Origin: Lichenostomus cassidix
Taxonomy: Eukaryota; Chordata; Aves; Passeriformes; Meliphagidae
Assembly (NCBI GenBank): GCA_008360975.2
Contig: VLJF02000033.1
Span: 3,286,001-3,350,000 of the forward strand
Reading direction: 5' to 3'
Length of the DNA: 64,000 nt
The position numbers and the translations under genes are program-made. This document shows positions 382-55,948 of the stretch, in pieces. Below the pieces are notes generated by a model. The model was given only the letters and a program-made list of their open reading frames with translations. It was not told the origin of the DNA and did no database searches. Every line of letters begins with the position of its first letter. Position 1 is the stretch's first letter.

Positions 382-489
382 GGCCACCCCGGGCTCATTG
401 GGCTGATTGGACCTCCTGGGGAGCAAGGGGACAAAGGGGACAGAGGGAGACCTGGAATTCCCGGAAAAACCGGGAACAAGGGAGAGACG
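382..489 (+). CDS. COL11A2: COL11A2 triple-helix exon, 108 bp
   Basis: Encodes 12 Gly-X-Y triplets in phase 0, including [19 protein letters not shown], which resembles the C-terminal helix of type V/XI chains. The acceptor is a C-run plus AG at 380-381 and the donor is GTGAGG at 490. From about 421 onward, the 3' two-thirds of the exon plus the donor recur 15 times in the following intron. Confidence 0.9.
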
Positions 490-3400
490 GTGAGGAATTG
501 GGGTGAAAATGTGGGATTTTGGGAAAAAATATGGGATTTGGGGAAAAAATAGCCAAAAAATGGGATTTGGGAGGAAAAAACTGCAAAAAAATGGGATTTT
601 GGGGACAAAGGGGACAGAGGGAGACCTGGAATTCCCGGAAAAACCGGGAACAAGGGAGAGACGGTGAGGATTTGGGGTGAAAATATGGGATTTTGGGAAA
701 AAACCCTAAAAAAATGGGATTTCGGGGAAAAAATCCGCAAAAAAATGGGATTTTGGGAGGAAAAACTGGGATTTTTGGGGACAAAGGGGACAGAGGGAGA
801 CCTGGAATTCCCAGAAAAACTGGGAATAAGGGAGAGACAGTGAGGAATTGGGGAGAAAAAATGGGATTTTGGGAAAAAACCCTAAAAAAATGGGATTTTG
901 GGGAAAAAATACCAAAAAAATCCGATTTTAGGAAGGAAAAAAGGGATTTTGGGGACAAAGGGGACAGAGGGAGATCTGGAATTCCCGGAAAAACCGGGAA
1001 CAAGGGAGAGACGGTGAGAAATTGGGGAGAAAAAGTGGGATTTTGGGAAAAAATATGGGATTTGGGGAAAAAACCCGAAAAAAATCGGATTTGGGAGGAA
1101 AAATCACCAAAAAAATGGGATTTTTGGGGACAAAGGGGACAGAGGGAGACCTGGAATTCCCGGAAAAACCGGGAATAAGGGAGAGACGGTGAGGAGTTGG
1201 CGAGAAAATATGGGATTTTGGGAAAAAACAAAAAAAATGGAATTTGGTGGGAAAAAATACCAAAAAATTGGGATTTTTGGGGAAAAAAATTGGGATTTTG
1301 GGGACAAAGGGGACAGAGGGAGACCTGGAATTCCGGGAAAAACTGGGAACAAGGGAGAGACGGTGAGGAGTTGGGGAGAAAAAACGGGATTTTGGGAAAA
1401 AATTGGGATTTTGGGGAAAAAACCTGAAAAAAATCGGATTTGGGAGGAAAAATCCCCCAAAAAATGGGATTTTGGGAGGAAAAATGGGATTTTTGGGGAC
1501 AAAGAGGACAGAGGGAGACCTGGAATTCCAGGAAAAACTGGGAACAAGGGAGAGACGGTGAGGATTTGGGGAGAAAAACTGGGATTTTGGGAAAAAAAGC
1601 CAAAAAAAATGGGATTTCGGGGAAAAAATCCGCAAAAAAATGGGGTTTTGGGAGGAAAAATGGGATTTTGGGGACAAAGGGGACAGAGGGAGACCTGGAA
1701 TTCCTGGAAAAACCGGGAATAAGGGAGAGACGGTGAGGAGTTGGGGTGAAAAAATGGGATTTTGGGAAAAAACCTAAAAAATGGGATTTTGGGGGGAAAA
1801 AATACCAAAAAAATCCGATTTTGGGAGGAAAAATCACCCAAAAAATGGGATTTTGGGGACAAAGAGGACAGAGGGAGACCTGGAATTCCTGGAAAAAAAC
1901 TGGGAATAAGGGAGAGACGGTGAGGAATTGGGGGGAAAATGTGGGATTTTGGGAAAAAAACCCTAAAAAAAAGGGATTTGGGGGGAAAAATACCAAAAAA
2001 ATCAGATTTTGGGAGAAAAAAACTGCAAAAAATGGAATTTTTGGGGACAAAGGGGACAGAGGGAGACCTGGAATTCCCAGAAAAACTGGGAATAAGGGAG
2101 AGAAGGTGAGGAGTTGGGGAGAAAAACTGGGATTTTGGGAAAAAACCCTAAAAAAATGGGATTTTGGGGAAAAAATCCGCAAAAAAATGGGGTTTTTGGG
2201 AGGAAAATTGGGATTTTTGGGGACAAAGGGGACAGAGGGAGACCTGGAATTCCTGGAAAAACTGGGAATAAGGGAGAGACGGTGAGGAATTGGGGAGAAA
2301 AAGTGGGATTTTGGGAAAAAACAACAAAAAAAAAGGGATTTTGGGGGAAAATTTGCCAAAAAAATTAGATTTTGGGAGAAAAAACTGCAAAAAATGGGAT
2401 TTTTGGGGACAAAGGGGACAGAGGGAGACCTGGAATTCCGGGAAAAACTGGGAATACGGGAGAGACAGTGAGGAGTTGGGGAGAAAAAATGGGATTTTGG
2501 GAAAAAAACCTAAAAAAATGGGATTTTGGGGAAAAAATCCGCAAAAAAATGGGATTTTGGGAGGAAAAATGGGATTTTTGGGGACAAAGAGGACAGAGGG
2601 AGACCTGGAATTCCGGGAAAAACCGGGAACAAGGGAGAGACGGTGAGGAGTTGGGGAGAAAAAATGGGATTTTGGGAAAAAAACCAAAAAAAATGGGATT
2701 TTGGGAAAAAATCGCCCAAAAAATCAGATTTTGGGAGGAAAAATGGGATTTTTGGGGACAAAGGGGACAGAGGGAGACCTGGAATTCCCAGAAAAACTGG
2801 GAATAAGGGAGAGAAGGTGAGGAGTTGGGGAGAAAAAATGGGATTTTGGGAAAAAACCCTAAAAAAATGGGATTTTGTGGGAAAAAAATACCAAAAAAAT
2901 CCGATTTTGGGGAGAAAAATGGCAAAAAAATGGGATTTTGGGGACAAAGGGGACAGAGGGAGACCTGGAATTCCCGGAAAAACCGGGAACAAGGGAGAGA
3001 CGGTGAGCAATTGGGGAGAAAATGTGGGATTTTGGGAAAAAACCCTAAAAAAATGGGATTTGGGGGGAAAAAATACCAAAAAAATCCGATTTTGGGAGGA
3101 AAAATGGAATTTTTGGGAAACAAAGGGGACAGAGGGAGACCTGGAATTCCGGGAAAAACTGGGAATAAGGGAGAGGTGATGAGGAAATTGGGGAAAAATG
3201 GGATTTTGGGAAAAAAGTTATTAAAAGTACGTATTTTGGGGAAAAAAACTCCAAAAAAATGGGATTTTGGGAGAAAAAATGGGAAAAAAAAGGGATTTGG
3301 GAGGAAAAATCATCAAAAAAGCAAAGGGAGTTTTTTTGGAAAATGGATTTTTGGGGGAAAAATTGGGATTTGGGGGAAAAAATGGGATTTTGGGGAAAAA

Positions 3401-9400: not shown

Positions 9401-12400
9401 AAAACCACCCAAAATAATCCCAAAAATCCCCACAAAAATCCCCAAAAATATCCCCAAATAAAAATCCTAAAACCACCCCAAAATTAACCCCAAAACCACC
9501 CAGAAAATATCCCAAAATACCAAAAAATATCCCAAAACAGCCCAAAAAATCCTCAAAAACACCCCAAAACCACCCAAAATCCCCCAAATTTCCCCCAAAT
9601 TTCCCCCAAAAATGCCCCAAATTTCTCTGCAGGGCCAAGCAGGACCCAAAGGGCAACGAGGACCTCCTGGACCTCCTGGGCATCCTGTGAGATTTGGGAT
9701 TTTGGGGAATTTTGGGGGAATTTGGGGGATTTTGGGGAGATTTGGGGGATTTTGGGGGCATTTGAAATTTGAGAGATTTTGGGGAAATTGGAGTGGATTT
9801 TGGGAAATTGAAGGATTTTGGGGAATTTTGGGGGATTTTGAGGATTTTGGGGAGATTTTGGGGGCATTTGGGGGAAATTTGAGAGATTTTGGGGGGATTT
9901 GGGTGGATTTTGGGGAAATTTCATGATTTTTGGGGAATTTTGGGGATTTTGGGGATTTTGAGGAGAGTCTGAAGAATGTTTTGGGGAAATGGGGATTTTG
10001 AAATTCGGGTGGTTTGGGGATTTTGAAAGTTTGGGGATTTTCAGGGGGATTTTGGGGAGATTTGGGGATTTTGAGGGAAGTTTGGGGCAATTTTGGGGAA
10101 ACTGGAATTTAGGGAGTTTTGGGGAATTTTGGGTGGATTTGAAAATTTGAGGGTTTGGAAATTTGGGTGATTTTGGTGGTTTTAAAATTTGGGGAGATTT
10201 GGGGTTTTGAAAATTTTGAGGAAGGTTGGGAATTTTTGAAATGGATTTTGGGGGGTTTGGAGAATTTGGGAATTGGAGTGGATTTTGGAAATTGGGTGAT
10301 TTTGGGGAATTTTTGGGGATTTTGGGGAGAGTTTGAGAGAATTTTTTGGGGAAAATGAGATTTTGGGGGGGAATTTGGGGTGGATTTGGGGAGTGGGGAT
10401 TTTGGGGAAGTTTGGGGATTTTGGGGTTTGGGGAAGTTTTGGGAGGGGGAAAATTTCGGGAGGGTGGGGATTTTGGAATTTGGGGATTTTGGGGATTTGG
10501 GGGTTTTAGGGGGAATTTGGGTGATTTTGGGAGATTTGGGGATTTTGGGAGGATTTAGGGGATTATGGGGGAAGGTTGGGGATTTTTGGGGAAAAAATGG
10601 GATTTTGGGATTTGGGGTGGATTTGGGGAGATTTGAGGGATTTTGAAATCTGGTGATTTGGGGGGGATTTTGGGGAGATTTTTGGGGATTTTAGAGGGAA
10701 GATTTTTGGGGGAAGGGTTTTGGGGAACTCAGTGATTTTGGGAATTTTGGGAATTTTGGGGAATTTGGGAATTTGGGATTTTGGGGATTTGGGATGAAAA
10801 TTTGGGAAATTTGGAATTTGGGGATTTTGAGGATTTTGGAGGAATTTGGGGGAATTTGGGGATTTTGGGGAGATTTTGGAGGGATTTTGGGGGAAGTTGG
10901 AGGAATTTTGAGAGATTTTGAGGATTTTGGGGAATTTAGGAAATTTGGGATGCAAAACAGGATTTTGGGGGGTTGGAGGATCTTGGGGGTGGATTTGGGA
11001 ATTTTGGGAGGGATTTTGGAGATTTTGGGATTTTGGGGAATTTGGGGGATTTAGGGGGATTTGGGAATGGAAAGTGGGATTTGGGGGAAATTTTGGGGGA
11101 AAAAGGGGATTTGGAGGGAAAGAAGGGATTTTGGGATTTCCCATCAGAATTTTGGGATTTTCCATGGGAATTTTCGGATTACCCATTGGAATTTTGGGAT
11201 TTTCTGTAGGAATTTTGGGATTTTCCGTCGGAATTTTGGGATTTCCCATCAGAATTTTGGGAATTCCCATCGGAATTTTGGGATTTCCCATTGGAATTTT
11301 GGGATTTCCAATGGAATTCTGGGATTTCCCATCGGAATTCTGGGATTTTTCAGCTAAATTTTGGGATTTCCCGTCAGAATTCTGGGATTTCCAGTCGGAA
11401 TTTTGGGATTTCCCATCAGAATTTTGGGATTTCCTGTCGGAATTTTGGGATTTCTATTGGAATTCTGGGATTTCCCATCAGAATTTTGGGATTTTCCGTC
11501 AGAATTTTTGGGTTTTCCATCAGAATTTTGGGATTCCCATGGGAATTTTGGATTTTCTGTAGGAATTTTGGGATTTCCAGTCGGAATTTTGGGATTTCCC
11601 GTCAGAATTTTTCGATTTCCCATCAGAATTTTGGATTTTCCCATCAGAATTTTGGGATTTCCCATCGGAATTTTGGGATTTTCCATCAGAATTTTGGGAT
11701 TTCCCGTCGGAATTTTGGGATTTCCCATCAGAATTTTAGGATTTTCCATCTGAATTTTGGGATTTTCCATCGGAATTTTGGGATTTCCCGTCGGAATTTT
11801 GGGATTTTCCTGTTGGAATTTTGGGATTCCCATGGGAATTTTGGATTTTCTGTAGGAATTTTGGGATTTCCCATCAGAATTTTGGGATTTTCCGTCAGAA
11901 TTTTGGGATTTTCCATCACAATTTTGGTATTTCCAGTTGGAATTTTGGATTTTCCCATCAGAATTTTGGGATTTTCTGTAGGAATTCTGGGATTTCCCAT
12001 CAGAATTTTGGGATTTTCTGTAGGAATTTTGGGATTTCCCGTCAGAATTTCATGATTTCCCGTCGGGATTTTGGGATTTCCCATCAGAATTTTGGGATTT
12101 CCCATCGGAATTTTGGGATTTCCCGTCAGAATTTTGGGATTTCCTGTTGGAATTTTGGGATTTCCCGTCAGAATTTTGGGATTTCCTGTTGGAATTTTGG
12201 GATTTCCCATCGGAATTTTGGGATTTCCCCCCGCAGGGTCCTCCCGGTGACGTCATCCAACCTCTTCCTCTCCAAATTCCCAAAAAATCCAAACGATCCC
12301 TCGACGGGAAATCCGGGAATCGACGGGAATTCGGAGATCAGAAATTCGGGAATCATCCGGAATTTGAGGATCAAGAATTTGGGAATCTTGGAGAATTCCA

Positions 12401-15400
12401 GGACAAGAAATTCAGGAATCTTGAGGAATTCAGAGACGAAAAATTCGGGAATCATGAAGAATTCCAGGATCAAGAATTCGGGAATCGCGAGGAATTCGGA
12501 GACGAAAAATTCAGGAATCATCCGGAATTTGAAGATCAGAAATTTAGGAATTCTCGGGAATTCCAGGCTGAGGATTTCGGGAATCGTGAGGAATTCCAGG
12601 ATCAAGAATTTGGGAATTCTCAGGAATTCCAGGATGAAAAATTCGGGAATTCCCGGGAATTTGAGGCTCAGAAATTCGGGAATTATGAAGAATTTGAGGC
12701 TCAGAAATTCGGGAATTCCCGGGAATTCCGGGATGAAAAATTTGGGAATTCTGAAGAATTCCAGGATGAAAAATTTGGGAATTCTTGGAAATTTCGGGAT
12801 CGCTCCCAGGCTCTCCTTGGCTCCCTGAATTCCCTAAAATCCGAGGTGGAGCAGCTCCGGAACCCGCCGGGAAGTCGGGAATTCCCTGCCAGGACCTGCC
12901 AGGACCTGCACCTCGCCCACCCCGAGCTGCCCGACGGTCTGTGGGGTTTGGGGGATTTTGGGAATTTTGGGGGAGTTTGGGATTTTTTTCTGGGAATTTT
13001 TGGGATTTTTGGGGATTTTTTGGGGATTTTTGGGGAATTTTTGGGGATTTTTGGGGGATTTTTGGGGGAATTTTTGGGATTTTTGGGATATTCTGGGGAA
13101 TTTTTGGGGATTTTTTGGGATTTTTTGGGGAATATTTGGGGATTCTTTTGGCATTTTTTGGGGATTTGGGGAATTTTGGGATTTGGAATTTTTTCGGGTT
13201 TTTGAGATTTTTTAGGATTTTTTTGGGATTTTTTGGGATTTTTGGGGGGAATTTTTAGGATTTTTTGGTGGGATTTTTAGGATTTTTTGGTGGGATTTTT
13301 TTTGCGAATTTTTGGGATGTTTTGGGATTTTTTTTGGATTTTTTTTAGATTTTTTTAAAATTTTTGGTATTTTTGGGGTTTTTTTTTCAGGAATTTTTGG
13401 GATTTTTGGGGGAATTTTTTTAGGATTTTTTGGGGGGATTTTTGGGATATTTTTTCTTTTTTAGGATATTTTGGGGAATATTTGGGATGTTTTGGGATTT
13501 TTTGGGGATTTTTTTTAATTTTTGTTAGGAATTTTTGGGATTTTTAGGATTTTTTAGGATTTTGGGGATTTTTTGATTTTTTTAATTTTTGGGGATTTTT
13601 TGAGATTTTTTGGAATTTTTGGGGAATTTTTTGGGATTTTTGGGGATTTTTGGAGATTTTTTTGGATTTTTTGGGGGATTTTTGGGGATTTTTTGGGATT
13701 TTTTTGATTTTTTTTTTTTTGGGATTTTTTGGGATTTTTTGGGGAATTTTTGGGATGTTTTGGGATTTTTGGAATTTTTGGTATTTTCCAGGTGACTATT
13801 GGATTGATCCCAACCAGGGATTCTTTACGGGATTTTTTCGGGATTTTTGGGGTTTTTTGGGCTAAAATTTGTTATTTTCCAGGTGACTATTGGATCGATC
13901 CCAACCAGAGATTCTTTCTGGGAATTTTTCAGGAATTTTTCAGGAATTTTGGGGGATTTTTTCCGGAATTTTTGGGCTGATTTTGGGTTTTTTCCCATGA
14001 TTATTGGATTGATCCCAACCAGGGATTCTTTCTGGGATTTTTTCTGGGATTTTTTGGGGTTTTTTTGGGATTTTTTGGGATTTTTTCAGGATTTCTTTGT
14101 TATTTTCCAGGTGACTATTGGATCGATCCCAACCAGGGATTCTTTATGGGATTTTTCAGGAATTTTTCAGGATTTTTTGGGAATTTTTGGGCTAAAATTT
14201 GTTATTTTCCAGGTGACTACTGGATCGATCCCAACCAGGGTTGCTCCAGAGATTCTTTAGGGGATTTTTCTGGATTTTTGGGGTTTTTTTGGGTTAAAAT
14301 TTGTTTTTTTCCAGGAATTTTTTCAGGATTTTTTGGGATTTTTCAATAATTTTTGTTATTTTCCAGGTGACTATTGGATCGATCCCAACCAGGGTTGCTC
14401 CAGAGATTCTTTAGGGGATTTTTTTGGGGATTTTTCAGGTTTTTTCAGGATTTTTTGGGATTTTTCAATAATTTTTTGTGTTTCCCAGGTGACTATTGGA
14501 TCGATCCCAACCAGGGTTGCTCCAGAGATTCTTTCCAAGTTTTCTGCAATTTCACAGCTGGAGGAGAGAGCTGCATCTTCCCCGAGATCCCACAGGTCTG
14601 AAATTCCCTAAATTTAACCCAAAATTCACCCAAAATTACCCCAAAATTCCAAAAAAATTCCCCCGAAATTTCCCTGAAATTCCTAAAAAAATTAACCCAA
14701 AATTCCCACAAAATTCCCACAAAATTACCACAAAATTCCCACAAAATTACCACAAAATTCCTCCAAAAATTCCTCCGAAATTACCCTGAAATTTCCACAA
14801 AATTCCCCCGAAATTCACACAAAGTTTCCCCTGAAATTCCTCAAAAAATTCCCACAAAATTCCCCCAAAATTATCCTGAAATTCACACAAAATTCCCCTG
14901 AAATTCCTAAAAAATTCCCACAGAATTTCTAAAAAAATTCCCCTGAAATTCTCCCAAAATTCTCACCAAATTCCTCCAAAAAACCCCCCAAAATTCCCAC
15001 AAAATTCCCACAAAAATTCCCTGAAATTCCCTGGAAATTCCTCAAAAAAATCCCTCAAAATTTCCCTGAAATTCTCCCCAAAAATTCCCACAAAATTCCT
15101 CCAAAAATTCCCCAAAAAGTCCTACAAAATTCCCTGGAATTCCTAAAAAAATTCCACCCAAATTGCCACAAAATTCCTACAAAATTCTTAAAAAGATTCT
15201 CCCAAAATTCCCCAAACATTTTCACAAAATTCCCCCAAAATGCCTCCAAAAATTCCTCCAAAATTCCCCTGAAATTCCTTTAAAAATTCCCAAAAATTCC
15301 CCCAAAATTACCACAAAATTACTCCAAAAATTACCCCAAAATTCCTCTGAAATTCTCCCAAAATTGCCCCAAAATTCATTTCAAAATTCCCACAAAATTC

Positions 15401-18400: not shown

Positions 18401-21400
18401 TTTTCCCATTTTTCCCATTTTTTCCCATTTTCTCCCCATTTTCCCTCCCAGCCTTTTCTCCATTTTCCCACAATAATTTCCCATTTTCCCCACAATTTCC
18501 CATTTTTCCCATTTTCTCACCATTTTTCCCAATTTTTCCCCTTTTCTCCCCATTTTCTCTCCCAGCCCTTTCCCCACAATAATTTCCCATTTTTTCACAA
18601 TAATTTCACAATAATTTCACCATTTTTTCCCATTTTTTCCCATTTTCTCCCCATTTTCCCTCCCAGCCTCTCTCGGTGGTTCAGCTGAAGATGTTTTCAC
18701 AATAAATTCACAATAATTTCACTATTTTTAACCATATTTTTCCCGTTTTTTCCCATTTTCTCCCCATTTTCCCTCCCAGCCTCTCTCAGTAGTTCAGCTG
18801 AAGATGTTTTCACAACAAATTCACTATTTTTTCACAATAATTTCACTATTTTTTCCCGTTTTTTCCCTTTTTCTCCCCATTTTCCCTCCTAGCCCTTTCC
18901 CCATTTTCCCCACAATAATTTCCCATTTTTTTCTCCCCAAAATTCACCATTTTTCACAATATTTTTCCCGTTTTTTCCCATTTTCTCCCCATTTTCTCTC
19001 CCAGCCCTTTCCCCATTTTCCCCCATTTCCCCCCCATTTTTTCACAATAATTTCAGTATTTTTTCTCCCCAAAATTCACCATTTTTTCCCATTTTCTCCC
19101 CATTTTCCCTCCCAGCCTCTCTCGGTGGTTCAGCTGAAGACGTTTTCACAATAATTTCACTATTTTTTCCCGTTTTTCCCCTTTTTCTCCCCATTTTCTC
19201 TCCCAGCCCTTTCCCCATTTTTTCTCCCCATTTCCCCACAATAATTTCCCATTTTTTCACAATAATTTCACAATAATTTCACAATAATTTCACAATAATT
19301 TCACAATAATTTCACAATTTTTTCCCGTTTTTTCCCATTTTCTCCCCATTTTCTCTCCCAGCCTCTCTCGGTGGTTCAGCTGAAGATGTTTTCACAATAA
19401 TTTCACAATAATTTCACTATTTTTAACCATATTTTTCCCATTTTTTCCCGTTTTCTCCCCATTTTCTCTCTCCCAGCCCTTTCCCCACAATAATTTCCCA
19501 TTTTTTCACAATAATTTCAGTATTTTTTCTCACCATTTTTCACAATAATTTTCCCATTTTTTCCCTTTTTCTCCCCATTTTCTCTCCCAGCCTCTCTCGG
19601 TGGTTCAGCTGAAGATGTTTTCACAATAATTTCACTATTTTTTCACAATAATTTCACTATTTTTCCCATTTTTTCCCTTTTTCTCCCCATTTTCTCTCCC
19701 AGCCTCTCTCGGTGGTTCAGCTGAAGTTCCTGCGGCTCCTCAGCGCCACCTGCCGGCAGCGCCTGGCTCTGCCCTGCGCCCCCCAAAACCCCCAAAATCA
19801 CCCCAAAAACACCCAAAATCACCAAAATTCCCAAAATTCCGGGAATTCCCAAAATTCCGGGGGTTCCCTGCGGTTCCTGGGAGCGAACGAGGAGGAGCTG
19901 GGAGAGGAGAACATCCGGATACTCGAGGATGGATGTGGGGTGGGTGGAGAAAAAAATGGGGATTTTGGGATTTTGGGTGGGAAAATGGGAATTTTGGGAT
20001 TTTGGGTGGGAAAATGGGAATTTTGGGTGGGAAAATGGGGATTTGGGGGATTTGGGTGGGAAAATGGGGATTTTGGGTGGGAAAGGTGGGGGATTTGGGG
20101 TGGGAAATGGGAATTTTGGGGATTTCAGGGTGGGAAAATGGGAATTTTGGGGTGAGAAAAGGGAATTTTGGGTGGGAAAAGTGGAAAATTTTGGGTGGGA
20201 AAAGTGGGAATTTGGGAATTTTAGGGTGGGAAAATGGGAATTTGGGGTGGGAAAAGGGAATTTTGGGAATTTTGGGGTGGTAAAATGGGAATTTTGGGGA
20301 TTTTCGGGGAAAAAGGATTTGGGAGAATTTTTGGATGGGAAAATGGGAATTTTGGGGATTTGGGGTTGGAAAAGTGGAAAATTTTGGGGATTTGGGTGGG
20401 AAAATGGGAATTTTGGGATTTTGGGGTGGAAAAAGTGGAAAATTTTGGGGATTTGGGTGGGAAAATGGGAATTTGGAGGAGAAAGTGGGGGAAAATGGGA
20501 AAAGTGGGAAAAATGGAGAAAATGGGTTTGGGGGGAAAAATGGGAATTTGGGGGATTTGGGGTGGGAAAATGGGAGTTTTGGGGATTTGGGAGGGAAAAT
20601 GGGAATTTTGGGATTTTGGGGTGGGAAAATGGGGATTATGGGTGGGAAAATGGGAATTTGGGGTGGGAAAGTGGAAAATTTTGGGATTGGGGTGGGAAAA
20701 GTGGGAATTTTGGGGATTTGGGGTGAGAAAAATGGGAATTTTGGGTGGGAAAGGTGGGAAATTTTTGGAGTTTTGGGGTGGGAAAAGTCGGAATTTGGGG
20801 GATTTGGGTGGGAAAAGTGCAAAATTTTGAGATTTGGGGTGGGAAAAGTGGGAATTGTGGGGATTTTGGGGTGGGAAAATGGGAATTTTGGGTGGAGAAA
20901 GTGGGAATTTGGGGATTTTGGGTGGGAAAACTGGGAATTTTGGGGTGGGAAAATGAATTTTGGGGATTTGGGGTGGGAAAATGGGAATTTTGGGGTGGGA
21001 AAAGGGATTTTGGGGTGAGAAAATTGGGAAATTGGGGATTTTGGGGTGGAAAAAGTGGGAATTTGGGGTGGGAAAAGTGGGATTTTGGGAATTTGGGGTG
21101 GAAAAAGTGGGAATTTGGGGTGGCAAAATTGGGAAATTTGGGGGATTTCGGGTGGAAAAAGTAGAAATTTCGGGATTCTGGGTGGGAAAAAGTGGGAATT
21201 TTGGGGTGGGAAAAGGGATTTCGGGGATTTCGGGTGGGAAAACTGGGAACTTGGGGGTGGCAAACCAAATTTCAGGATTCATCACCCCAAACTCCCTAAA
21301 AATCCCCCAAAATTCCCGATTTTTCCCCATTTTTCCAGCCCCAGGGCAGCTCCGGCCGGCGCCTGCTGGAGCTTCGCTCTTCCCGCCCGGAGCAATTCCC

Positions 21401-23150: not shown

Positions 23151-23159
23151 AGAGAATTT

Positions 23160-24745: not shown

Positions 24746-24769
24746 GTCTCTCTCTCCGCTCTTTCCCGC

Positions 24770-25120: not shown

Positions 25121-27080
25121 GTGAGGGGGAGAAGAGAATTTGGGTTTTTTGGGGGAAAATTTGGGGTTTCTGAGGGGAATTTGGGGTTTCTGAGGGGAAT
25201 TTGGGGATCCGGAGGGGGATTTTGGCGTTTTGAGAGAAATTTGGGGTTCCGGAGGGGAAATTTGCGGTTCCGGGGAGGATTTGGGGATCCTGAGGGGAAT
25301 TTTGAGTTCTGAGGGGAATTTTGGGGTTTTGAGGGAAAATTTGGGAATTCTGAGGGAAAAATTGGGGTTTCTGAGGGGAATTTGGGGATCCGAAGGGGAG
25401 ATTTGCGGTTCTGAGGGGAATTTGGGATTTCTGAAGGGAATTTGGCATTTCTGAGGCGAATTTTGGGGTTCCAGGAAGGAATTCGGGATTTCTGAGGGAA
25501 ATTTGGCGTTCTGAGGCGAATTTTGGGGTTCCCTGAGGCGAATTTTGAGTGGAATTTAGGAATTTTGAGGGGAATTTGGGGATCCGGGGCGGAATTTTCG
25601 GGTTTTGAGAGGAATTTTGGAATTTCTGAGTGGATTTTGTGGTTCCTGAGGCGAATTTCGAGGTTTTTGAGGGAAATGTGGGGGTTTTGAGGGGAATTTG
25701 AGGATCCTGAGGGGAATTTTGGGGTTTCTGAGGGGAATTATTGAGTTCTGAGAGGATTTTGGGGATCCTGAGGGGAAATTTGGGGATCCGGAGGGGATAT
25801 TTGGGATTTCTGAGGCGAATTTTGGAGTTCCGGGAAGGAATTTTGGGAATTCTGAGGGGAATTCGGGGTTTTGAGAGGAATTTTGGGGTTTTTGAGGGAA
25901 ATGTGGGGTTTTTGAGGGGAATTTGAGGATCCTGAGGGGATTTTTGGGATTTCTGAGGCGAATTTTGGGGTTTCTGAGGAGAATTTTGGAGTTCTGAGGG
26001 GAATCCGGGGATCCGGAGGGGAATTTGGGGATTCTGAGGGGAAATTTGGGGGTTCCGGAGGGGAATTTTGGGGTTTTGTGGAGAATTTGGGGTTTCTGCG
26101 GGGAATTTAGGAATTCTGAGGGGAATTTTGGGGTTTCTGAGGGGAATTTGGGGGTTCTGAGGAGAATTTTGGAGTTCTGAGGGGAATTTGGGGTTTCTGA
26201 GGGGAAATTGGGAATCTTGAGGGGAAATTGGGGTTTTTGAGGCGAATTTGGGAATTCTGAGGGAAATTTTGGGGATCCTGAGGGGAATTTTGAGGTTTCG
26301 GAGGGGAATTTGGAGTTCCGGGTAGGAATTTGGGGTTGCTGAGGGGAAATTTGGGGATTCTGAGGGGAAATTTGGGGATTCTGAGGGGATTTTGGAGATC
26401 CAGAGGGGAATTTTGGGGATCCGGAGGGGAAATTTGGGATCGTGAGGGGAAATTTGAGGTTTCTGAGGGAAATTCGGGGTTTTTGAGGGAAATCTGGGGT
26501 TTCTGAGGGGAATTTTGGGGTTTCTGAGGGGAATTTGGGGATCTGGGGAGAAATTTTGGGGTTTTGAGAGGAATTTTGAGGTTTCTGAGGGAAATTTTGG
26601 GGGTTTTGAGGGAAATGTGGTGTTTCTGAGGGGAATTTGGGTATCCAGAGGGGAAATTTGGGGTTTCTGAGGCGAATTTTGGGGTTTCTGAGGGGAATTT
26701 GGGATTTCTGAGGCAAATTTTGGAGTTTCTGAGAGGAATTTTGGGGTTTCTGAGAGGAATTTGGGATCCGGGGAGGAATTTTGGGGTTTCTGAGGGAAAT
26801 TTTGGGGTTTTTGAGAATAATTTAGGGTTTTGGAGGGGAATTTGGGGATCCTGAGGGTAATTTTGGGGTTCTGAGAGAAATTTTGGGATTCCTGAGGGAA
26901 TTTTGGGGTTTCTGAGGGGAATTTTGGGATTCCAAGGGTGATTTTTGGGGTTCCAAGGCTGATTTTGGGGCTGAAAGGCTGATTTTGGGGTCCCCAGGGT
27001 GATTTTTGGGGTCTCTGGATGGATTTTGGGGTCTCTGGATGGATTTTTGGGGCTGAAAGGCTGATTTTTGGTGTCCCCAG
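25121..27080. repeat. RING1 intron 1: GGGGTTTCTGAGGGGAATTT repeat
   Basis: Tandem units of about 20-22 bp (GGGGTTTCTGAGGGGAATTT with GGGGATCCTGAGGGG variants). From 26930 they pass into GGCTGATTTTGGGG variants. Minus-frame translation is a long Pro/Asn/Ser-rich frame that is a repeat shadow. It ends at the acceptor TGTCCCCAG at 27080. Confidence 0.85.
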
Positions 27081-27162
27081 GGCGATGGCCGCCCCCGCCA
27101 GCGCGCAGAGCGCCAGCAAGACGTGGGAGCTGAGCTTGTATGAGCTGCACAGGACACCTCAG
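27081..27162 (+). CDS. RING1: RING1 first coding exon
   Basis: ATG at 27085, four bases after the acceptor, in the context GGCGATGG. It encodes 26 residues ending HRTPQ at CAG before GTAACC. The start is chosen because the N-terminus ([17 protein letters not shown]) matches the RING1/RNF2 family. Confidence 0.92.
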
Positions 27163-30100
27163 GTAACCGAAATTTGGGGGAAAACTGCCTGGAATTGGGA
27201 AAAACTGACGGGAATTGGGGAGAAACTGCCTGGAATTGGGGAGAGACATCATGGAATTGGGGAGAGACATCATGGAATTGGGGAAAACTGCCAGAAATTT
27301 GGGGGAAAACAGGCTGGAATTGGGGAGAGACAGCCTGGAATTGGGGAGAGACAGCCTGGAATTGGGAAAAACTGCCGGGAATTGGGAAAAACTGCCGGGA
27401 ATTGGGAAAAACTGCCGGGAATTGGGAAAAACTGCCGGGAATTGGGAAAAACTGCCGGGAATTGGGAAAAACTGCCGGGAATTGGGAAAAACTGCCGGGA
27501 ATTATGGAAAGACTGCCTGGGATTGGGAAAAACTGCCTGGGATTGGGAAAAACTGCCTGGGATGGGGAAAAACTGCCTGGAATTGGGAAAAACAGGCTGG
27601 AATTGGGAAAAACTGCCTGGAATTGGGAAAAACTGCCTGGAATTGGGGAGAGACAGCATGGGCAGCATGGAGACAGCAGTGTCCCCTCAGGGTGTCACTG
27701 ATCTCATGGTCACTGCCACACCCCAGTGTCACATCGTCACCCCCAGGAGGCCATCATGGACGGCACAGGGATCGCGGTGTCCCCTCAGGGTGTCCCCAGG
27801 GTGTCCCTGACCCCAGTGTCCCCCGAATGACCCCAGTGTCACTGTCACCTTCAGGAGGCCATCATGGATGGCACGGAGATCGCGGTGTCCCCGCGGTCAC
27901 TGCACTTGGAGCTGATGTGTCCCCATGGACACTGTGTCACTCTGATGTCACTCTGTGTCCCCAGGAGGCCATCATGGACGGCACAGAGATCGCGGTGTCC
28001 CCGCGGTCACTGCACTCGGAGCTGATGTGTCCCCATGGTGTCACTGACCCCATGATGTCACTGTGTGTCCCCAGGAGGCCATCATGGACGGCACAGAGAT
28101 CGCGGTGTCCCCGCGGTCACTGCACTCGGAGCTCATGTGTCCCCAATGTCACTCTGTCCCCAGGAGGCCATCATGGACGGCACAGAGATCGCAGTGTCCC
28201 CGCGGTCACTGCACTCGGAGCTCATGTGTCCCCATGGTGTGTCACTGACCCCATGATGTCACTGTGTGTCCCCAGGAGGCCATCATGGACGGGACAGAGA
28301 TAGCAGTGTCCCCACAGTCACTGCACTCGGAGCTGATGTGTCCCCATGGTGTCACTGTGTCACTCTGATGTCACTCTGTGTCCCCAGGAGGCCATCATGG
28401 ATGGCACAGAGATCGCGGTGTCCCCGCGGTCACTGCACTCGGAGCTGATGTGTGCCTATGGTGTGTCAGGGATGTCCCCATGGTGTCACTGACCCCAATG
28501 TCACTCTGTCCCCAGGAGGCCATCATGGACGGGACGGAGATCGCAGTGTCCCCGCGGTCACTGCACTCAGAGCTGATGTGTCCCCATGGACACTGTGTCA
28601 CTCTGATGTCACTGTGTGTCCCCAGGAGGCCATCATGGACGGGACGGAGATCGCGGTGTCCCCGCGGTCACTGCACTCGGAGCTGATGTGTCCCCATGGG
28701 TGTCACTGATCTCATGATGTCACTCTGATGTCATTGTCACCCCCAGGAGGCTATCATGGACGGCACAGAGATCGCGGTGTCCCCGCGGTCACTGCACTCG
28801 GAGCTGATGTGTCCCTATGGTGTCACTGTGTCACTCTGATGTCATTGTCACCCCCAGGAGGCCATCATGGATGGCACAGAGATCGCGGTGTCCCCACGGT
28901 CACTGCACTCAGAGCTGATGTGTCCCCATGGTGTGTCAGGGATGTCACTGTCCCCAGTGTCACTCTGATGTCACTGTGTGTCCCCAGGAGGCCATCATGG
29001 ACGGGACGGAGATCGCGGTGTCCCCGCGGTCACTGCACTCGGAGCTGATGTGTCCCATCTGCCTGGACATGCTGAAGAACACGATGACCACCAAGGAGTG
29101 TCTGCACAGGTTCTGCTCCGACTGCATCGTCACCGCGCTCCGCAGCGGGTGAGTGACACTGTCACCTGTGTGTCATTGTCACTGTCATTGTCACCTGTGT
29201 CACTGTCATTGTCACCTGTCCCACTCCTGTCCCTGCATCACCTCTGCTCCGACTGCATTGTCACCGCGCTCCGCAGCGGGTGAGTGACACTGTCATTGTC
29301 ATTGTCATTGTCATTGTCACCTGTGTGTCATTGTCACCTGTGTGTCACCTGTGTGTCATTGTCACTGTCATTGTCACCTGTGTGTCAGCTGTGTGTCATT
29401 GTCATTGTCATTGTCATTGTCACCTGTGTGTCATTGTCACCTGTGTGTCAGCTGTGTGTCATTGTCATTGTCATTGTCATTGTGTTACTTGTCATTGCCA
29501 TTGTTACCTGTGTGTCACCTGTGTCATTGTCACTGTCATTGCCACCTGTGTGTCACCTGTCCCTGCATTGGTCACCAGTGTGACCTTTCTGACCTGTGTA
29601 ACCTCCCTGTGTCACCTGTCACCTGTGTGTCATTGTCATTGTCACCTGTGTGTCATTGTCATTGTCACCTGTGTGTCATTGTCACCTGTGTGTCACCTGT
29701 CCCACTCCTATCTCTGCATTGGTTCTGCTCTGACTGCATTGTCACCATGCTGAAGAGCAGGTGAGTGACACTGTCATTGTCATTGTCACCTCTGTGTCAT
29801 TGTCACTGTCATTGTCACTGTCATTGTTACCTGTGTGTCACCTGTGTCATTGTCACTGTCATTGTCACCTGTGTGTCACCTGTCCCTGCATTGGTTCTGC
29901 TCCGACTGCATTGTCACTGCCTCAGCAGGTGTCATTGTCACCTGTGTGTCATTGTCACCTGTGTGTCATTGTCATTGTCCTGTCACTGTCACCTGTGTCA
30001 CCTCCTTGTGTCCCTCCTGCCCTGCATTGATTCTGCTCTGACTGCATTGTCACCGCGCTGAGGAGCGGGTGAGTGACACTGTCATTGTCACCTCAGTGTC

Positions 30101-33100
30101 ATTGTCATTGTCACCTGTGTCATTGTCATTGTCACCTGTGTGTCACTTGTATAACCTCTGTAACCTCCCTGTGTCATCTCTGTCACCTGTGTGTCACCTG
30201 TGTCACCTCATTGTCACCTGTCCCTGCACTGGTTCTGCTCTGACTGTATTGTCACCGCGCTGAGGAGCGGGTGAGTGACACTGTCATTGTCACCTCAGTG
30301 TCACCTGTGTGTCATTGTCAATGTCACCTGTGTGTCATTGTCCTGTCATTGTCACCTGTGTCACCTCCTTGTGTCCCTCCTGTCCCTGCATTGGTTCTGC
30401 TCTGACTGCATTGTCACCGCGCTGAGGAGCGGGTGAGTGACACTGTCATTGTCATTGTCACCTCAGTGTCACCTGTGTGTCATTGTCAATGTCACCTGTG
30501 TGTCACCTGTATAACCTCTGTAACCTCCCTGTGTCATCTCTGTCACCTGTGTGTCACCTGTGTCACCTCATTGTCACCTGTCCCTGCATTGGTTCTGCTC
30601 CGACTGTATTGTCACTGTGCTGAGGAGCGGGTGAGTGACACTGTCACTGTCATTGTCACCTCAGTGTCACCTGTGTGTCAGCTGTGTGTCATTGTCACTG
30701 TCATTGTCACCTGTGTCACCTCATTGTCACCTGTCCCTGCATTGGTTCTGCTCTGACTGTATTGTCACTGTGCTGAGGAGCGGGTGAGTGACACTGTCAT
30801 TGTCATTGTCACCTGTGTGTCACCTGTGTGTCAGCTGTGTGTCATTGTCACTGTCATTGTCACCTGTGTGTCACCTGTCCCTCCATCAATTCTGCTCCAG
30901 CTGCATTGTCAATGCATTGAAGAGCGGGTGAATGTCATTGTCACCTCAGTGTCATTGTCACCTGTGTGTCACCTGTGTGTCATTGTCATTGTCATTGTCA
31001 TTGTCACCTGTCTCTGCATTGATTCTGCTCTGACTGCATTGTCACCGCATTGAGTGGTGTCATTGTCACCTGTGTGTCACCTGTATAACCTCTGTCACCT
31101 GTGTGTCACCTGTGTCTGTGTCACCTGTGTGTCACCTGTGTGTCACCTGTATAACCTCTGTCACCTGTGTGTCACCAGTGTCATTGTCACCTGTGTGTCA
31201 CCTGTGTGTCGCCTGTATAACCTCTGTCACCTGTGTGTCACCAGTGTCTGTGTCACCTGTGTGTCGCCTGTGTGTCACCTGTATGTCACCTGTGTCATTG
31301 TCACCTGTGTGTCACCTGTGTGTCCTTTCCCTGTTCCCATTTCCAATTATTTCCCATTAATTCCCATTAATTCTCATTAATTCCCATTATTTCCCATTAT
31401 TTCCCATTAATTCCCATTTCTCATTCCCAGTTCCCATTTCCCATCCCAAATTCCCACTTTTCCGGGTTTTTTCAGTGCTCTCTCCATCCTGACCCCAATT
31501 TCGACTCTCTGATCTCAATCATTCTCATTTCCTGATCCCAAATTCCCATTTTTTGGGGTTAAATGCCATTTTTTCTGGGATTTTCCAGGAACAAGGAGTG
31601 TCCCACATGCCGTAAGAAGTTAGTTTCCAAGCGCTCTCTCCGCCCCAACCCCAATTTCGACTCTCTGATCCCAAATTCCCATATTTTGGGTTATTTCCAG
31701 GAACAAGGAGTGTCCCACATGCCGTAAGAAGCTGCTCTCCAAGCACTCTCTCCGCCCCAACCCCAATTTCGACTCTCTGATCCCAAATCCCCATTTTTTT
31801 GGGTTATTTCCAGGAACAAGACTGTCTGATCTCAATCATTTCCCAATCCCAATTCCCCAATTCCCATTAAATCCCATTAAATCCCAATAATTCCATGTTT
31901 TTCCAGGAACAAGGAGTGTCCCACGTGCCGTAAGAAGTTGGTTTCCAAGCGCTCTCTCCGCCCCAACCCCAATTTCGACTCTCTGATCCCAAATCCCCAT
32001 TTCCTGATCCCAAATTCCCATTTTTCCCATATTTTTCAGGAACAAGGAGTGTCCCACGTGCCGTAAGAAGCTGTTTCCAAGCACTCTCTCCACCCCGACC
32101 CCAATTTCGACTCTCTGATCCCATTAATTCCCATTTTTCCCATTAAATCCCAACAATTCCATGTTTTTTCAGGAACAAGGAGTGTCCCACATGCCGTAAG
32201 AAGCTGCTCTCCAAGCGCTCTCTCCGCCCCGACCCCAATTTCGACTGTCTGATCCCAAATTCCCATTTTTTTGGGGTTAAATCCCATTTTTCCCATATTT
32301 TCCAGGAACAAGGAGTGTCCCACATGCCGTAAGAAGCTGGTTTCCAAGCGCTCTCTCTGCCCCGACCCCAACTTCGACTCTCTAATCCCAAATTCCCATA
32401 TTTTTGGGTAATTTCCAGGAACAAGGAGTGTCCCACGTGCCGTAAGAAGCTGTTTCCAAGCGCTCTCTCCGCCCTGACCCCAACTTCGACTCTCTGATCC
32501 CAAATTCCCATTTTTGGGGTTAAATCCCATTTTTTCTGGGATTTTCCAGGAACAAGGAGTGTCCCACATGCCGTAAGAAGCTGGTCTCCAAGCGCTCTCT
32601 CCGCCCTGACCCCAATTTCGACTCTCTGATCCCATTAATTCCCATTTTTCCATGGTTTTTCCCATATTTTTGGGTTATTTCCAGGAACAAGGAGTGTCCC
32701 ACGTGCCGTAAGAAGCTGCTCTCCAAGCGCTCTCTCCGCCCTGACCCCAATTTCGACTCTCTGATCCCAAATCCCCATTTTTTCCCATTAAATCCCAATT
32801 AATCCCATATTTTTGGGTTATTTCCAGGAACAAGGAGTGTCCCACATGCCGTAAGAAGTTGGTCTCCAAGGGCTCTCTCTGCCCCGACCCCAATTTCGAC
32901 TCTCTGATCCCAAATTCCCATTTTTTGGGGTTAAATCCCAATAATTCCATGTTTTTCCAGGAACAAGGAGTGTCCCACGTGCCATAAGAAGCTGCTCTCT
33001 CCACGCGCTCTCTGTGCCCTGACCCCAATTTCGACTCTCTGATCCCAAATCCCCATTTCGTGATCCCAAATTCCCATTTTTCCCATATTTTCCAGGAACA

Positions 33101-36100
33101 AGGAGTGTCCCACGTGCCGTAAGAAGCTGTTTCCAAGCACTCTCTCCACCCCAACCCCAATTTCGTCTCTCTGATCCCATTAATTCCCATTTTTCCCATT
33201 AAATCCCATTAAATCCCAATAATTCCATGTTTTTTCAGGAACAAGGAGTGTCCCACATGCCGTAAGAAGCTGGTTTCCCAGTGCTCTCTCCGCCCCGACC
33301 CCAATTTCGACTCTCTGATCCCAAATTCCCATTTTTTGGGGTTAAATCCCAATAATTCTGGTTATTTCCAGGAACAAGGAGTGTCCCACATGCCGTAAGA
33401 AGCTGCTCTCCAAGCGCTCTCTCCGCCCCGACCCCAATTTCGACTCTCTGATCCCAAATCCCCATTTCCTGATCCCAAATTCCCATTTTTTGGGGTTAAA
33501 TCCCATATTTTGGGTTATTTTCAGGAACAAGGAGTGTCCCACATGCCGTAAGAAGCTGGTCTCCAAGCGCTCTCTCCGCCCCGACCCCAACTTCGACGCG
33601 CTCATCTCCAAGATCTATCCCTCCCGCGACGAGTACGAAGCTCACCAGGACAGAGTCCTCGCCAAGCTCAGTCGCCTCCACAACCAGCAGGCGCTCAGCT
33701 CCAGCATCGAGGAGGGGCTGAAAATGCAGGCCATGCACAGGTTTGGGGAGAATTCGGGAAATTTTGGGAATTTTGGGGGTTTTGGGGTGGGAATGGTGAA
33801 AAAAACGGGGTGAAAATCGCTTTAAATTCAACAAAAAAAGCATTGAAAAACTGAAAAAAATATAAAATTTCTTCAAGAGTTTTTCTGGTTGTTCCCAAAT
33901 CACTGAAGATCTCACAAATCCCACTATTTCCCCCAAATCCCACAAATTTCCCACAAATTCCCCCAAAATCCTCAAAAATCCCACCAAAAACTGCCTCAAA
34001 TCCCACAAATTCTCCCCAAAATCTCATCCAAAATTGCCCCAAATCCCACAGTTTCTCCCCAAATCTTCTCAAATCCCACAAATTCTCCATTCAGGCTGCA
34101 GGCCATGTGTGGTTTGGGGAGAATTTGGGGATTTTTGGGGTTTTTTGGGGTTTTGAGGGGTTTTGGGGTGGAAATTGTGCAAAAAACAGGGTGAAAATTG
34201 CTTTAAATTCAACAAAAATCGCATTGAAAAACTGAAAAAAATATAAAATTTCTTCAAGAGTTTTTCTGGTTGTTCCCAAATCACTGAAGATCTCACAAAT
34301 CCCACTATTTCCCCCAAATCCCACAAATTTCCCACAAATTCCCCCAAAATCCTCAAAAATCCCACCAAAAACTGCCTCAAATCCCACAAATTCTCCCAAA
34401 ATCTCATCCAAAACTGCCCCAAATCCCACAGTTTCTCCCCAAATCCCCTCAAATCCCACAAATTCTCCATTCACAATGCAGGCCATGCACAGGTTTGGGG
34501 GGAATTTGGGGATTTTTGGGGTTTTTTGGGAATTTTGGGGTGGAAATTGTGCAAAAAACGGGGTGAAATTCACATTAAATTCAACAAAAATCGCATTGAA
34601 AAACTGAAAAAAATATAAAATTTCTTCAAGAGTTTTTCTGGTTGTTCCCAAATCACTGAAAATCCCACAAATCTCACAAAATCCCCACAAAATCCCCCAA
34701 ATTCTCCCCAAATCCCATCAAAAACTGCACCAAATCCCAGAAATTCTCCCCAAAATCTCATCCAAAAACTGCCCCAAATCCCACAATTTCTCCCCAAATC
34801 TTCTCAAATCCCACAAATTCTCCATTCAGGCTGCAGGCCATGCACAGGTTTGGGGGGAATTTGGGGATTTTTGGGGTTTTTGGGAATTTTGGGGTGGAAA
34901 TCATGCAAAACCAACGTTTTTCCCTTACAACCCCCGTTTTTTCCACTTAAAAATCTCTTTTTTTCCCCATTATTTTTTCCAAAATGCTCTTTTTCCCCCA
35001 CAAACTCCATTTTTTCACTTAAAAACTCCATTTTTTCACTTAAAAATCCCATTTTTTCCCCATTTTTTCACTTAAAAACCTCATTTTCCCCCCTAAAATC
35101 TCCATTTTTTCACTTAAAAACTCCATTTTTCCACCTAAAAATCCCATTTTTTCACTTACAAACTCCATTTTTTCACTTAAAATCCTCATTTTTTCCCCCT
35201 AAAAACTCCATTTTTTCACTTAAGAATTCCTTTTCCCCCCATTTTTTCACTTAAAAATTCAATTTTTTCCCTTAAAAACTCCATTTTTTCACTTAAAAAT
35301 CCCATTTTTTCCCCCTTTTTTTCCCTACCACTCCCATTTTTTCACTCCAAATCCCTTTTTTTCCCGTTCTGATCCCAATTTTTCCCATTCTGATCCCAAA
35401 TTTCCCTATTTTTCCCCCAGAGCTCAGCGCGTCCGCAAGCTGGCGGCCGAGTCCGACCCAGCAGGTTCCCCCTAAAACTCTCATTTTTCACCTAAAAATC
35501 CCATTTTTTCCCTGAAACTCCCCTTTTTTCCCTTTAAAACCCCAACTTTCCCCTAAAAACTCCATTTTTTCACTTAAAAATCTGATTTTTTCCCCATTTT
35601 TTCCCCTAAAAACTCCATTTTTCCCCTTAAAAATCTGGTTTTTTCCCCGTTTTTCACTTAAAAATTCAATTTTTTCACCCTAAAAAGTCCCATTTTTATT
35701 CCATTTCCCCATTTTCTCCCCATTTCCAGAGCTCAGCGCGTCCGCAAGCTGGCGGCCGAGTCACACCCTCTGCTCTCAGCAGCGCCAAGGAAGCTCTGGG
35801 GATTCCCTTAAAAATCCCTTTTTTCCCTTTAAAAATCCCATTTTTTCCCTTAAAAACTCCATTTTTTTCACTTAAAAACTCCATTTTTTCCCCTATAAAC
35901 TCCATTTTTTCACTTAAAATCCTCTTTTTTTCTCCTAAAAACTGCGTTTTTTCCCTTAAAAACTCAGTTTTTTTCCCCTTAAAAATCTCAATATTTTTTC
36001 CCGTTTTTCTCCCATTTTTTCACTTAAAAATTCAATTTTTTTCCCTTAAAAACTCCATTTTTTCACTTAAAAATCCCATTTTTTCCCCGTTTTTCCCCTG

Positions 36101-39100
36101 AAAGCTCCATTTTTTCACTCCAAATCCCAATATTTTCCCCATTTTTATTCAATTTCCCCGTTTTCTCCCCATTTCCAGAGCTCAGCGTGTCCGCAAGCTG
36201 GCGGCCGAGTCCGACCCGTCAGCTCTCAGCAGCACCGAGGAAGCTCTGGAGATTTCCTTAAAAATCCCTTTTTCCCCCAGGTTTTCCCTAAAAACTCCAT
36301 TTTTTCCCTTAAAAACTCAATTTTTTTCTCTTAAAACTCCATTTTTCCCTTAAAAACCTCATTTTTTCGCTTATAAACCCCATTTTTTCCCCATTTTTTC
36401 ACATAAAAATCCCATTTTTTCACTTGAAAATCCCATTTTTTCCCCATTTTTTCACTTAAAAACCTCATTTTCCCCCCTAAAATCTCAATTTTTTCACTTA
36501 AAAACTCCATTTTTTTCCCCTATAAACTCCATTTTTTCACTTAAAATCCTCTTTTTTCTCCTAAAACTGCGTTTCCCTTAAAACTCTTTTTTCCCTTAAA
36601 AATCTCAATATTTTTTCCCATTTTTCTCCCATTTTTCACTTAAAATCCCATTTTTTCACTTAAAATTTCAATTTTTTCCCTTAAAAACTCCATTTTTTCA
36701 CTTAAAAATCCCATTTTTTCCCCGTTTTTTCCCCTAAAAGCTCCATTTTTTCACTCCAAAATCCCATTTTTTTCACTAAAAACCCCATTTTTTCCCATTT
36801 TCTCCCCATTTCCAGAGCTCAGCGCGTCCGCAAGCTGGCAGCCGAGTCTGACCCGTCAGCTCTGAGCGGCGCCGAGGAAGCTCTGGGGATTCCCTTAAAA
36901 ATCCCTTTTTTCCCTTTAAAAATCCCATTTTTTCCCTTAAAAACTCCATTTTTTTCACTTAAAAACTCCATTTTTCCCCTATAAAAATCCCATTTTTTCC
37001 CTTAAAAACTCCATTTTTTCCCCTTAAAAATCTCAATATTTTTTCCCATTTTTCTCCCATTTTTTCACTTAAAAATCCCTTTTTTTCACTTAAAAATTCA
37101 ATTTTTTCCCTTAAAAACTCCTTTTTTTCACTTAAAAACTCCATTTTTTCACTTAAAAATCCCATTTTTACCCCTGAAAGCTCCATTTTTTCACTCCAAA
37201 TCCCAATATTTTCCCCATTTTTATTCCATTTTCCCATTTTTTCCCATTCCCAGAGCCCAGCGCGTCCGCAAGCTGGCGGCCGAGTCGGACCCGTCGGCCC
37301 TGAGCGGCGCCGAGGAAGCTCTGGAGGCTCTGGGCAGCGTTGGCAGCGCCGCCGACCCCGCGGCGGGACCGAGCCGCAAACGCTCCCGCGCCTCCGACGA
37401 CTCCGGCGCCGAGCCCGAGCCCGAGGGGGCGGGGCCTGACGGGGCGGGGCCGGGGGGGAGGGGCAGCCCCGAGACAGAGCAGGAAGTGGCCAGCAGCGAG
37501 ATCGAGCTCGTCTTCCGGCCACACCCCCTGCTGGTGGAGAAGGGAGAGTACTGCCAGACACGGTGAGGACACTTCCGGGTCACTTCCTGTTCGTTTCCTG
37601 TTCATTTCCGGGTTCATTTCCGGGTTTGTGTTCCACTTCCTGTTCCGTTTCCGAGTTTGTTTCCAGTTCCTGTTCTCCTTCCGGCCACACCCCCTGCTGG
37701 TGGAGAAAGGGCAGTACTGCCAGACACGGTGAGGAGACTTCCTGTGCCATTTCCTGCTCACTTCCGGGTTCATTTCCGGGTCATTTCCTGTTTGTGTTCC
37801 AATTCCGGTTCCATTTCCTGTTCCACTTCTGGGTTCCTTTGTTTTTCCATCTCTGGATTCCTTTCTGGTTCCATTTTCAAAGAGAACAGTTTTCCATGTT
37901 TTCTTCCCAGATTTTTTCCCAGATTTTTCCCCACTTGTCTACCATCCCCAAATTTCCCATTTCCCCCTGAATTCACCCCATTTTTGGGTTACTTTTCCCC
38001 CCAGGTTTGTCAAAACCACCTCCAACCCCACGGTGGATCACCTCTCCAAGTACCTGTCCATCCCATTTTCTCAGCCATTTTTCCATTATTTTTTCTGCGA
38101 TTTTTTCCCAGATTTTTTCCAGACTTTTCTCCTATCCTGAATTTCCCATTTCCCCTGAATTCACCCCATTTTTCCCTGTTTTTTTTCCATAGATTTGTTA
38201 AGACAACGTCGAACGCGACGGTGGATCACCTGTCCAAGTACCTGTCCTTCCCATTTTGGGCTCTTTTTCCCATTTTTGGTTATTTTATCTCTATTTTATC
38301 TCTATTTTATCTCTCAGGTTCGTCAAGACGACGTCGAACGCGACGGTGGATCACCTGTCCAAGTACCTGTTTATCCCATTTTTGGTTATTTTATCTCTAT
38401 TTTATCTAGATTTTATCCATATTTTATCTAGATTTGTCAAAACCACCTCCAACCCCACAGTGGATCACCTCTCCAAGTCCCTGTCCATCCCATTTTCTCA
38501 GCCATTTTTCCATTAATTTTTCTGCGATTTTTTCCCAGATTTTTTACAGACTTTTCTGCTATCCTGAATTTCCCATTTCCCCCTGGATTCACCCCATTTT
38601 TCCCTGGTTTTATCCCATAGATTTGTCAAGACGACGTCGAACGCGATGGTGGATCACCTGTCCAAGTACCTGTTTGTCCCATTTTTGGGCTCTTTTTCCC
38701 ATTTTTCACCCATTTTTTGGTTATTTTATCTCTCAGGTTCGTCAAGACGACGTCGAACGCGACGGTGGATCACCTCTCCAAGTACCTGTTTGTCCCATTT
38801 TGGTTATTTTATTTCTATTTTATCTCTATTTTATCTCACAGATTTGTCAAGACGACGTCGAACGCGACGGTGGATCACCTCTCCAAGTACCTGTCCTTCC
38901 CATTTTGGGCTGATTTCCCCATTTTTCCCTGTTTTTATCTCACAGGTTCGTGAAGACGACGTCGAACGCGACGGTGGATCACCTGTCCAAGTACCTGGCC
39001 CTGCGGATCGCGCTGGAGGAAGCTCCTCCCCCCGGCCCTGACTCCTCCCCCGCCCTGCGCGACGTCAGCGAGAAGCAATACACCATCTACACCACCACTG

Positions 39101-55883: not shown

Positions 55884-55948
55884 ACAAGTTAGTCATCACT
55901 GTCAGAGCCTAGATTATCATCCAGACAAATTCGTAAACTAAATAAACA

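Follow-up and report, generated by a model that had tools for sequence, protein, structure and literature searches.

We examined how many introns of two neighbouring genes, COL11A2 and RING1, came to consist in part of copies of the edges of their own exons, and whether these copies are still in contact with the exons they came from. The window is a stretch of 64,000 nucleotides (nt) from contig VLJF02000033.1 of the bird Lichenostomus cassidix (positions are counted from its first letter); it takes in the 3' end of COL11A2 along with the coding part of RING1, and the two genes share the + strand. At ten exon edges the adjoining intron was found to contain partial copies of the exon, each array derived from the exon beside it, and the exon copies, at least in RING1, differ from the working exon mainly at synonymous positions although their use in splicing would seldom give an open frame.

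Arrays of exon edges in the introns of COL11A2 and RING1

Fifteen exons were placed from splice signals and open frames, nine in COL11A2 (C1–C9) and six coding exons in RING1 (R1–R6), and both frames are open through to the stop. Pfam matches were to collagen and fibrillar C-terminal domains in COL11A2 and to RING and RAWUL domains in RING1; the RING1 protein was 89% identical to that of Chamaea fasciata and 85–88% identical to five other named passerine records. The exons referred to by position below are:

382..489, + strand: COL11A2 exon C1, 108 nt, collagen Gly-X-Y (splice sites, open frame, Pfam Collagen)
12237..12936, + strand: COL11A2 exon C5, 700 nt (splice sites, open frame)
14489..14595, + strand: COL11A2 exon C6 (splice sites, open frame)
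19703..19939, + strand: COL11A2 exon C8 (splice sites, open frame)
28988..29148, + strand: RING1 exon R2, 161 nt (splice sites, open frame, Pfam)
33525..33740, + strand: RING1 exon R3, 216 nt (splice sites, open frame)
37254..37562, + strand: RING1 exon R4, 309 nt (splice sites, open frame)
38946..39117, + strand: RING1 exon R5, 172 nt (splice sites, open frame)

Each exon was aligned to both of its flanking stretches, with five block-shuffled controls per stretch; the control maxima were 14–31, and the threshold was set at 34 or more and at least 4 above the control. One hundred rows passed, and 74 of them make up ten exon-edge arrays, three in COL11A2 and seven in RING1, each adjoining its own exon. 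The remaining 26 rows, none of which touches an edge of its source exon, were set aside as matches of exon interiors to low-complexity DNA (8 between the C5 coding repeat and its upstream intron, 16 between the C9 interior and the 3' flank, and 2 of low complexity at 17494 and 21281). The arrays are:

490..3175, + strand: C1 donor array, 15 copies of the last 56–63 nt of C1 with the donor and about 115–136 nt of intron (GT in 14/15)
13792..14488, + strand: C6 acceptor array, 6 copies of the acceptor and the first 46–64 nt of C6 (AG in 5/6)
18667..19702, + strand: C8 acceptor array, 5 copies of the acceptor and the first 24 nt of C8 (AG in 5/5)
27747..28987, + strand: R2 acceptor array, 11 copies of the acceptor and the first 38–69 nt of R2 (AG in 11/11)
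29149..31048, + strand: R2 donor array, 9 copies, each of part of the exon end (border reached in 7, GT in 6)
31589..33524, + strand: R3 acceptor array, 14 copies of the acceptor and the first 86–91 nt of R3 (AG in 14/14)
33741..34849, + strand: R3 donor array, unit of about 380 bp, 3 short copies of the last ~18 nt with the donor (1 scored, 2 by eye)
35421..37253, + strand: R4 acceptor copies, 4, with the first 39–73 nt of R4 (AG in 4/4)
37678..37728, + strand: R4 donor copy, 1, of the last 51 nt with the donor (alignment)
38005..38945, + strand: R5 acceptor array, 7 copies of the acceptor and the first 52–55 nt of R5 (AG in 7/7)

An additional R3 fragment at 31474, which lacks the acceptor, brings the R3 acceptor rows to 15 in all.

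The array unit is thus part of an exon together with its own splice site and some intron. The AG or GT is intact in 68 of the 71 copies that align to the exon border, and the longest exon part of any copy amounts to 60% of its exon. These results bear out a reading made earlier from the sequence alone (the sequence-only reading), which had named the same ten borders, described the unit in these terms, noted that no whole exon is copied and pointed to dozens of decoy splice sites. Its wider statement, that the introns grew from exon edges, applies to seven of the 13 introns, in which the arrays span 45–88% of the intron; the six other introns, and the rest of the arrayed ones, are repeat in which exon-edge copies were not detected. 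The tandem-repeat finder (TRF) run that it had proposed gave a coverage of 0.85–0.99 in each of the 13 introns, compared with 0.02 in the 46–56 kb region.

That reading had also taken it as a rule shared by the two genes that acceptor copies lie upstream and donor copies downstream of the exon. The pattern is there, but it does not stand as a shared rule, since a tandem duplication across an exon border necessarily leaves its extra copy on that side. The lack of whole-exon copies is the only part of the rule that needs an explanation, and it fits the unit size combined with selection. By a hand tabulation 10 of the 28 exon edges carry arrays, none of the 10 edges of exons shorter than 100 nt and 10 of the 18 edges of longer exons (Fisher p 0.004 by edge, 0.026 by exon), as would be expected if units taking in a whole exon are removed; the effect of length is confounded with gene, as 7 of 11 RING1 edges and 3 of 17 COL11A2 edges are arrayed and the short exons are mostly those of COL11A2.

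We compared the arrays with sequence stuttering, described by Hron et al. 2026 on chicken dot chromosomes (PMC12954441) and including exon stuttering, in which a lateral part of an exon is copied with its donor or acceptor through the adjacent intron. As reported there, chicken has 236 exon-stuttering introns in 115 genes (190 of the introns on dot chromosomes), and length was variable in 183 of 192 such introns. Judged by the features compared here, the arrays are of this published kind, in agreement with the locus-wide process that the sequence-only reading had proposed: the introns show the repetitiveness of sequence stuttering throughout, and fragments of the adjacent exon were found in ten arrays. 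Common to both are partial copies of the adjacent exon with a splice site, clusters of tandem copies that are strictly local, and repeat-filled introns. The exon part is 20–187 nt in 1–44 copies in PMC12954441 and 18–91 nt in 1–15 copies here, and the present arrays lie in other genes of another bird. COL11A2 and RING1 are not named in the main text of PMC12954441, the gene list of which sits in its supplements, nor do the terms "synonymous" and "microhomolog" occur in that main text. The names sequence stuttering and exon stuttering were met with in PMC12954441 alone in the literature searched, the scope of which did not take in bioRxiv.

In the duck, a block of the major histocompatibility complex (MHC) runs from COL11A2 through RING1 according to PMC10845735, and chicken chromosome 16 is described as the MHC-bearing dot chromosome (PMC10845735, PMC8893315, PMC12954441, PMC9974502). 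We infer that the window, too, may lie on a dot chromosome.

Intron gain by tandem genomic duplication, as described in PMC4974935 and PMC3443670, likewise produces extra splice sites by duplication of a gene segment. In that system, however, a new intron arises, whereas here the copies lie inside existing introns and the exon structure is unchanged. It was rejected for this locus, where no new intron was found in former coding sequence, because the copies are partial exons (60% or less) within existing introns and the original exon frames are open.

Reading frame and splice sites in the exon copies

Wherever a copy departs from the working exon, each distinct variant was scored as synonymous or not; for the null, identical base changes were placed at random among sites matched for base and CpG state. 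An untrimmed codon test (84 synonymous and 95 non-synonymous) included misaligned copy ends and was therefore replaced by trimmed sets, without copies 17494, 27747, 31474 and 35421 and without the R3 donor array, the copies of which are too short. Over all arrays 57 of 88 variants were synonymous where 37.3 were expected, and 0 of 20,000 simulations gave a number as high; a second alignment gave 54/82 (36.3 expected). No synonymous excess was seen in the two wrong frames (15 compared with 22.2 expected, and 12 compared with 18.9). The excess persisted with any single array omitted, without CpG sites (26/40, 13.4 expected) and without variants fixed in all copies (52/82, 34.4 expected), and the signal is carried by the RING1 arrays (46/72, 28.0 expected). 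Variants common to at least two copies divided 34:10 between synonymous and non-synonymous, whereas private variants divided 18:17 (Fisher p 0.019); by the other alignment, 34 of 45 shared and 21 of 40 private variants were synonymous. It is this frame-respecting variation in non-coding exon copies that the present locus adds, one locus and mainly one gene.

Use of a decoy splice site would, by computation, introduce a stop into the extended exon in 69 of 71 cases and change the frame in 45 of 71. Because nearly all decoys bring a stop, the synonymous bias is not accounted for by use of the copies as coding sequence. The arrays could still be thought functional, their copies being either a source of alternative exons or splice decoys with a regulatory role in COL11A2 and RING1; the canonical dinucleotides retained at most borders would suit this, as would the R3 acceptor copy nearest the exon, the sole decoy whose addition (+153 nt) is open and in frame. 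We consider such a function very improbable. Apart from the stops and frame changes, some copies carry frame-breaking indels, and the exon parts differ on average by just 3–21%, so that the copies are young and retention of the dinucleotides needs no selection.

Since the copies are not expected to be coding, the bias suggests re-copying from, or conversion with, an exon under selection. On the simplest reading many of the variants originated in the working exon, or were screened there, and were carried into the array later, whether by repeated copying or through conversion.

Possible exchange with the exon, growth and the junctions of the arrays

Exon parts were less diverged than intron parts in all 8 arrays tested, of the ten. 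In the C1, R2 acceptor and R3 acceptor arrays the distances of exon part and spacer did not covary, which suits patchwise exchange; in the C6 array covariation was intermediate (r 0.47, p 0.057). Within the R3 array there are block copies, units 31907 and 32040 matching those at 32961 and 33096. Minisatellites turn over by unequal exchange or gene conversion, which gives imperfect units, block copies and no simple gradient between neighbours. The present arrays resemble them in their imperfect units, in block copies and in the lack of a simple gradient between neighbours, and differ in that each is bounded at one end by the edge of a working exon, on which purifying selection acts.

The R4 copies point in the same direction. 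Those at 36179 and 36816 read SALS, sharing a leucine with the exon of this bird. Of the 16 bird RING1 records fetched, 15 have phenylalanine in its place and the sixteenth (chicken) lacks the stretch; the remaining two R4 copies are disrupted at the leucine site or ahead of it. The copies at 36179 and 36816 were made, or overwritten, after the change at this residue.

Junctions were scored by script and read by eye, and homology was convincing in 2 of the ten arrays and ambiguous in 2 more. At the C1 junctions 5 nt of homology was present in 3 of 15 copies and none in 5 of 15. The outermost R2 copy (27747) has, by eye, an 8-nt GTGTCCCC match to the intron at about 27,679, for which the script gave no parent, although the script did score that same intron site as parent of copy 28626. 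Matches at the C6 and R3 junctions (up to 8 and 10 nt) are ambiguous, the supposed parents lying in or beside other copies. Homology was 0–2 nt at the R2 donor junction, and no junction homology or parent was found in the C8, R3 donor, R4 donor, R4 acceptor and R5 arrays.

Taken together, we consider it probable that these are exon-stuttering arrays whose exon parts stay near the working exon by fresh copying or conversion. In introns that consist almost throughout of tandem repeat, local duplications spanning an exon–intron border would have carried the edge of the exon, together with its splice site, into the intron, where they were multiplied; duplications of a whole exon would alter the protein and were presumably removed, leaving the partial-exon units; and re-copying or gene conversion would hold the exon parts near the working exon while the intron parts drift. 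The order we prefer puts duplication first, at junctions with little or no homology, and unequal exchange or conversion after it.

Several results weigh against this account. The COL11A2 arrays alone gave 11 of 16 synonymous variants compared with 9.3 expected (P 0.19). Private variants were also in excess, if more weakly (21/40 compared with 14.4 expected, P 0.011), so that a sharp split between old shared snapshots of the exon and later neutral decay is too simple. The low-complexity spacers may have diverged through slippage of their own, and in the R5 and R2 donor arrays the distances of exon part and spacer do covary, on one side (r 0.85 and 0.76), as fits the copying of entire units.

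The sequence-only reading had suggested replication slippage or template switching, of which the junctions described above give no demonstration. If slippage acted in isolation, perhaps aided by G-quadruplexes or other structures, and the copies had no contact with the exon afterwards, the synonymous bias would be an accident of mutation. Hron et al. (PMC12954441) treat mechanism as speculation only, and replication stress at such structures is one of the suggestions made there. Coverage by G-quadruplex motifs was far above shuffled sequence in several introns (0.48 in C2–C3, 0.51 in C8–C9), but these two introns hold no exon-edge arrays, whereas the four RING1 introns that hold seven of the ten arrays have coverage of 0.00–0.04; as a local cause the motif was rejected, for it does not track capture of exon edges. 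Similarity between copies fell with distance in the C6 array (r 0.48, p 0.045) and showed no such fall in the other 7 of 8 arrays, and the bias survives when base and CpG state are matched and also when CpG sites are excluded. Slippage in isolation is accordingly judged unlikely. Strand asymmetry of the introns was extreme over 1–41000, with GC skew reaching -0.94 and +0.87 and switching sign between introns.

The same reading had left room for a systematic assembly artefact, that is, false tandem copies at repeat-rich borders. Stuttering regions are indeed hard to sequence and assemble (PMC12954441), and the copy number in the assembly may be off. Copy variation here respects the frame and runs in blocks, the frame result for COL11A2 by itself being the weak one given above, and for chicken PHF8 raw nanopore reads confirmed arrays of this kind (PMC12954441). 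An artefact as the source of the arrays is very unlikely.

Repeats inside coding exons and the surrounding DNA

Two further features lie within COL11A2 exons:

12309..12803, + strand: coding array in C5, 15 in-phase 33-bp units with an 11-residue motif, open frame
~19779–19872, + strand: intron-like CCCAAAAT stretch in frame within C8 (sequence)

In the C5 array 8 of 29 variants were synonymous compared with 5.8 expected (P 0.18); the test did not show selection acting on the peptide repeat, and stops are absent from a second frame as well. A collagen search gave 167 matches, the best 120 of which were considered, with coverage of the query part reaching 64% at most and full-length collagens being excluded by length. 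In the comparison of six records among these 120, the closest of the matches listed was a partial unnamed product of the hawfinch, in which the flanking segments are separated by 17 residues and the C5 array is absent; at the position of the C8 stretch it has a different low-complexity stretch. Both features would be expressed, judging from the open frame. In-frame repeats inside a coding exon are a difference from exon stuttering in chicken, where, in the main text of Hron et al. (PMC12954441), none were observed crossing into exons.

We put forward, tentatively, the wider possibility that the arrays trade sequence with the working exon, that exon edges evolve as the end of a minisatellite under a coding filter, and that the process enters exons where the protein tolerates it. 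Each array would then be a mixed record of past states of its exon edge and a reservoir of neutral variants for write-back by conversion, and the same process would give rise to coding arrays, the 15 x 11-residue block of COL11A2 among them. The reading-frame test is cheap, requires just a complete genome, and bears on mechanism: a synonymous excess in the decoys across such genes would place arrays in contact with the working exon, which would argue for recombination or conversion rather than isolated slippage. The arrays would then preserve earlier states of the exons, and coding exons, too, would be open to the process.

The 3' flank of COL11A2 (21937–23050) holds a repeated motif that resembles the interior of C9, the last coding exon (the 16 alignment rows set aside above), and stuttering may extend to this end of the gene too. 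The gap between COL11A2 and RING1 (21480–27080) appears by eye to hold repeats only, a gene search of the interval not having been made; in the duck MHC block RXRB, SLC39A7 and HSD17B8 are placed between the two genes (PMC10845735), and their loss or relocation relative to that block is possible. The chicken RING1 record contains a repeated insert in the protein model that looks like translated intron repeat, and stuttering may corrupt automatic gene models. Further along the window, 54000–56000 is an island of ordinary sequence, with tandem repeat almost nil, and carries a provirus-like coding stretch (labelled by eye, a domain search not having been made). The segment 56800–57850 is promoter-like and GC-rich, with repeated segments, and is perhaps the start of another gene.

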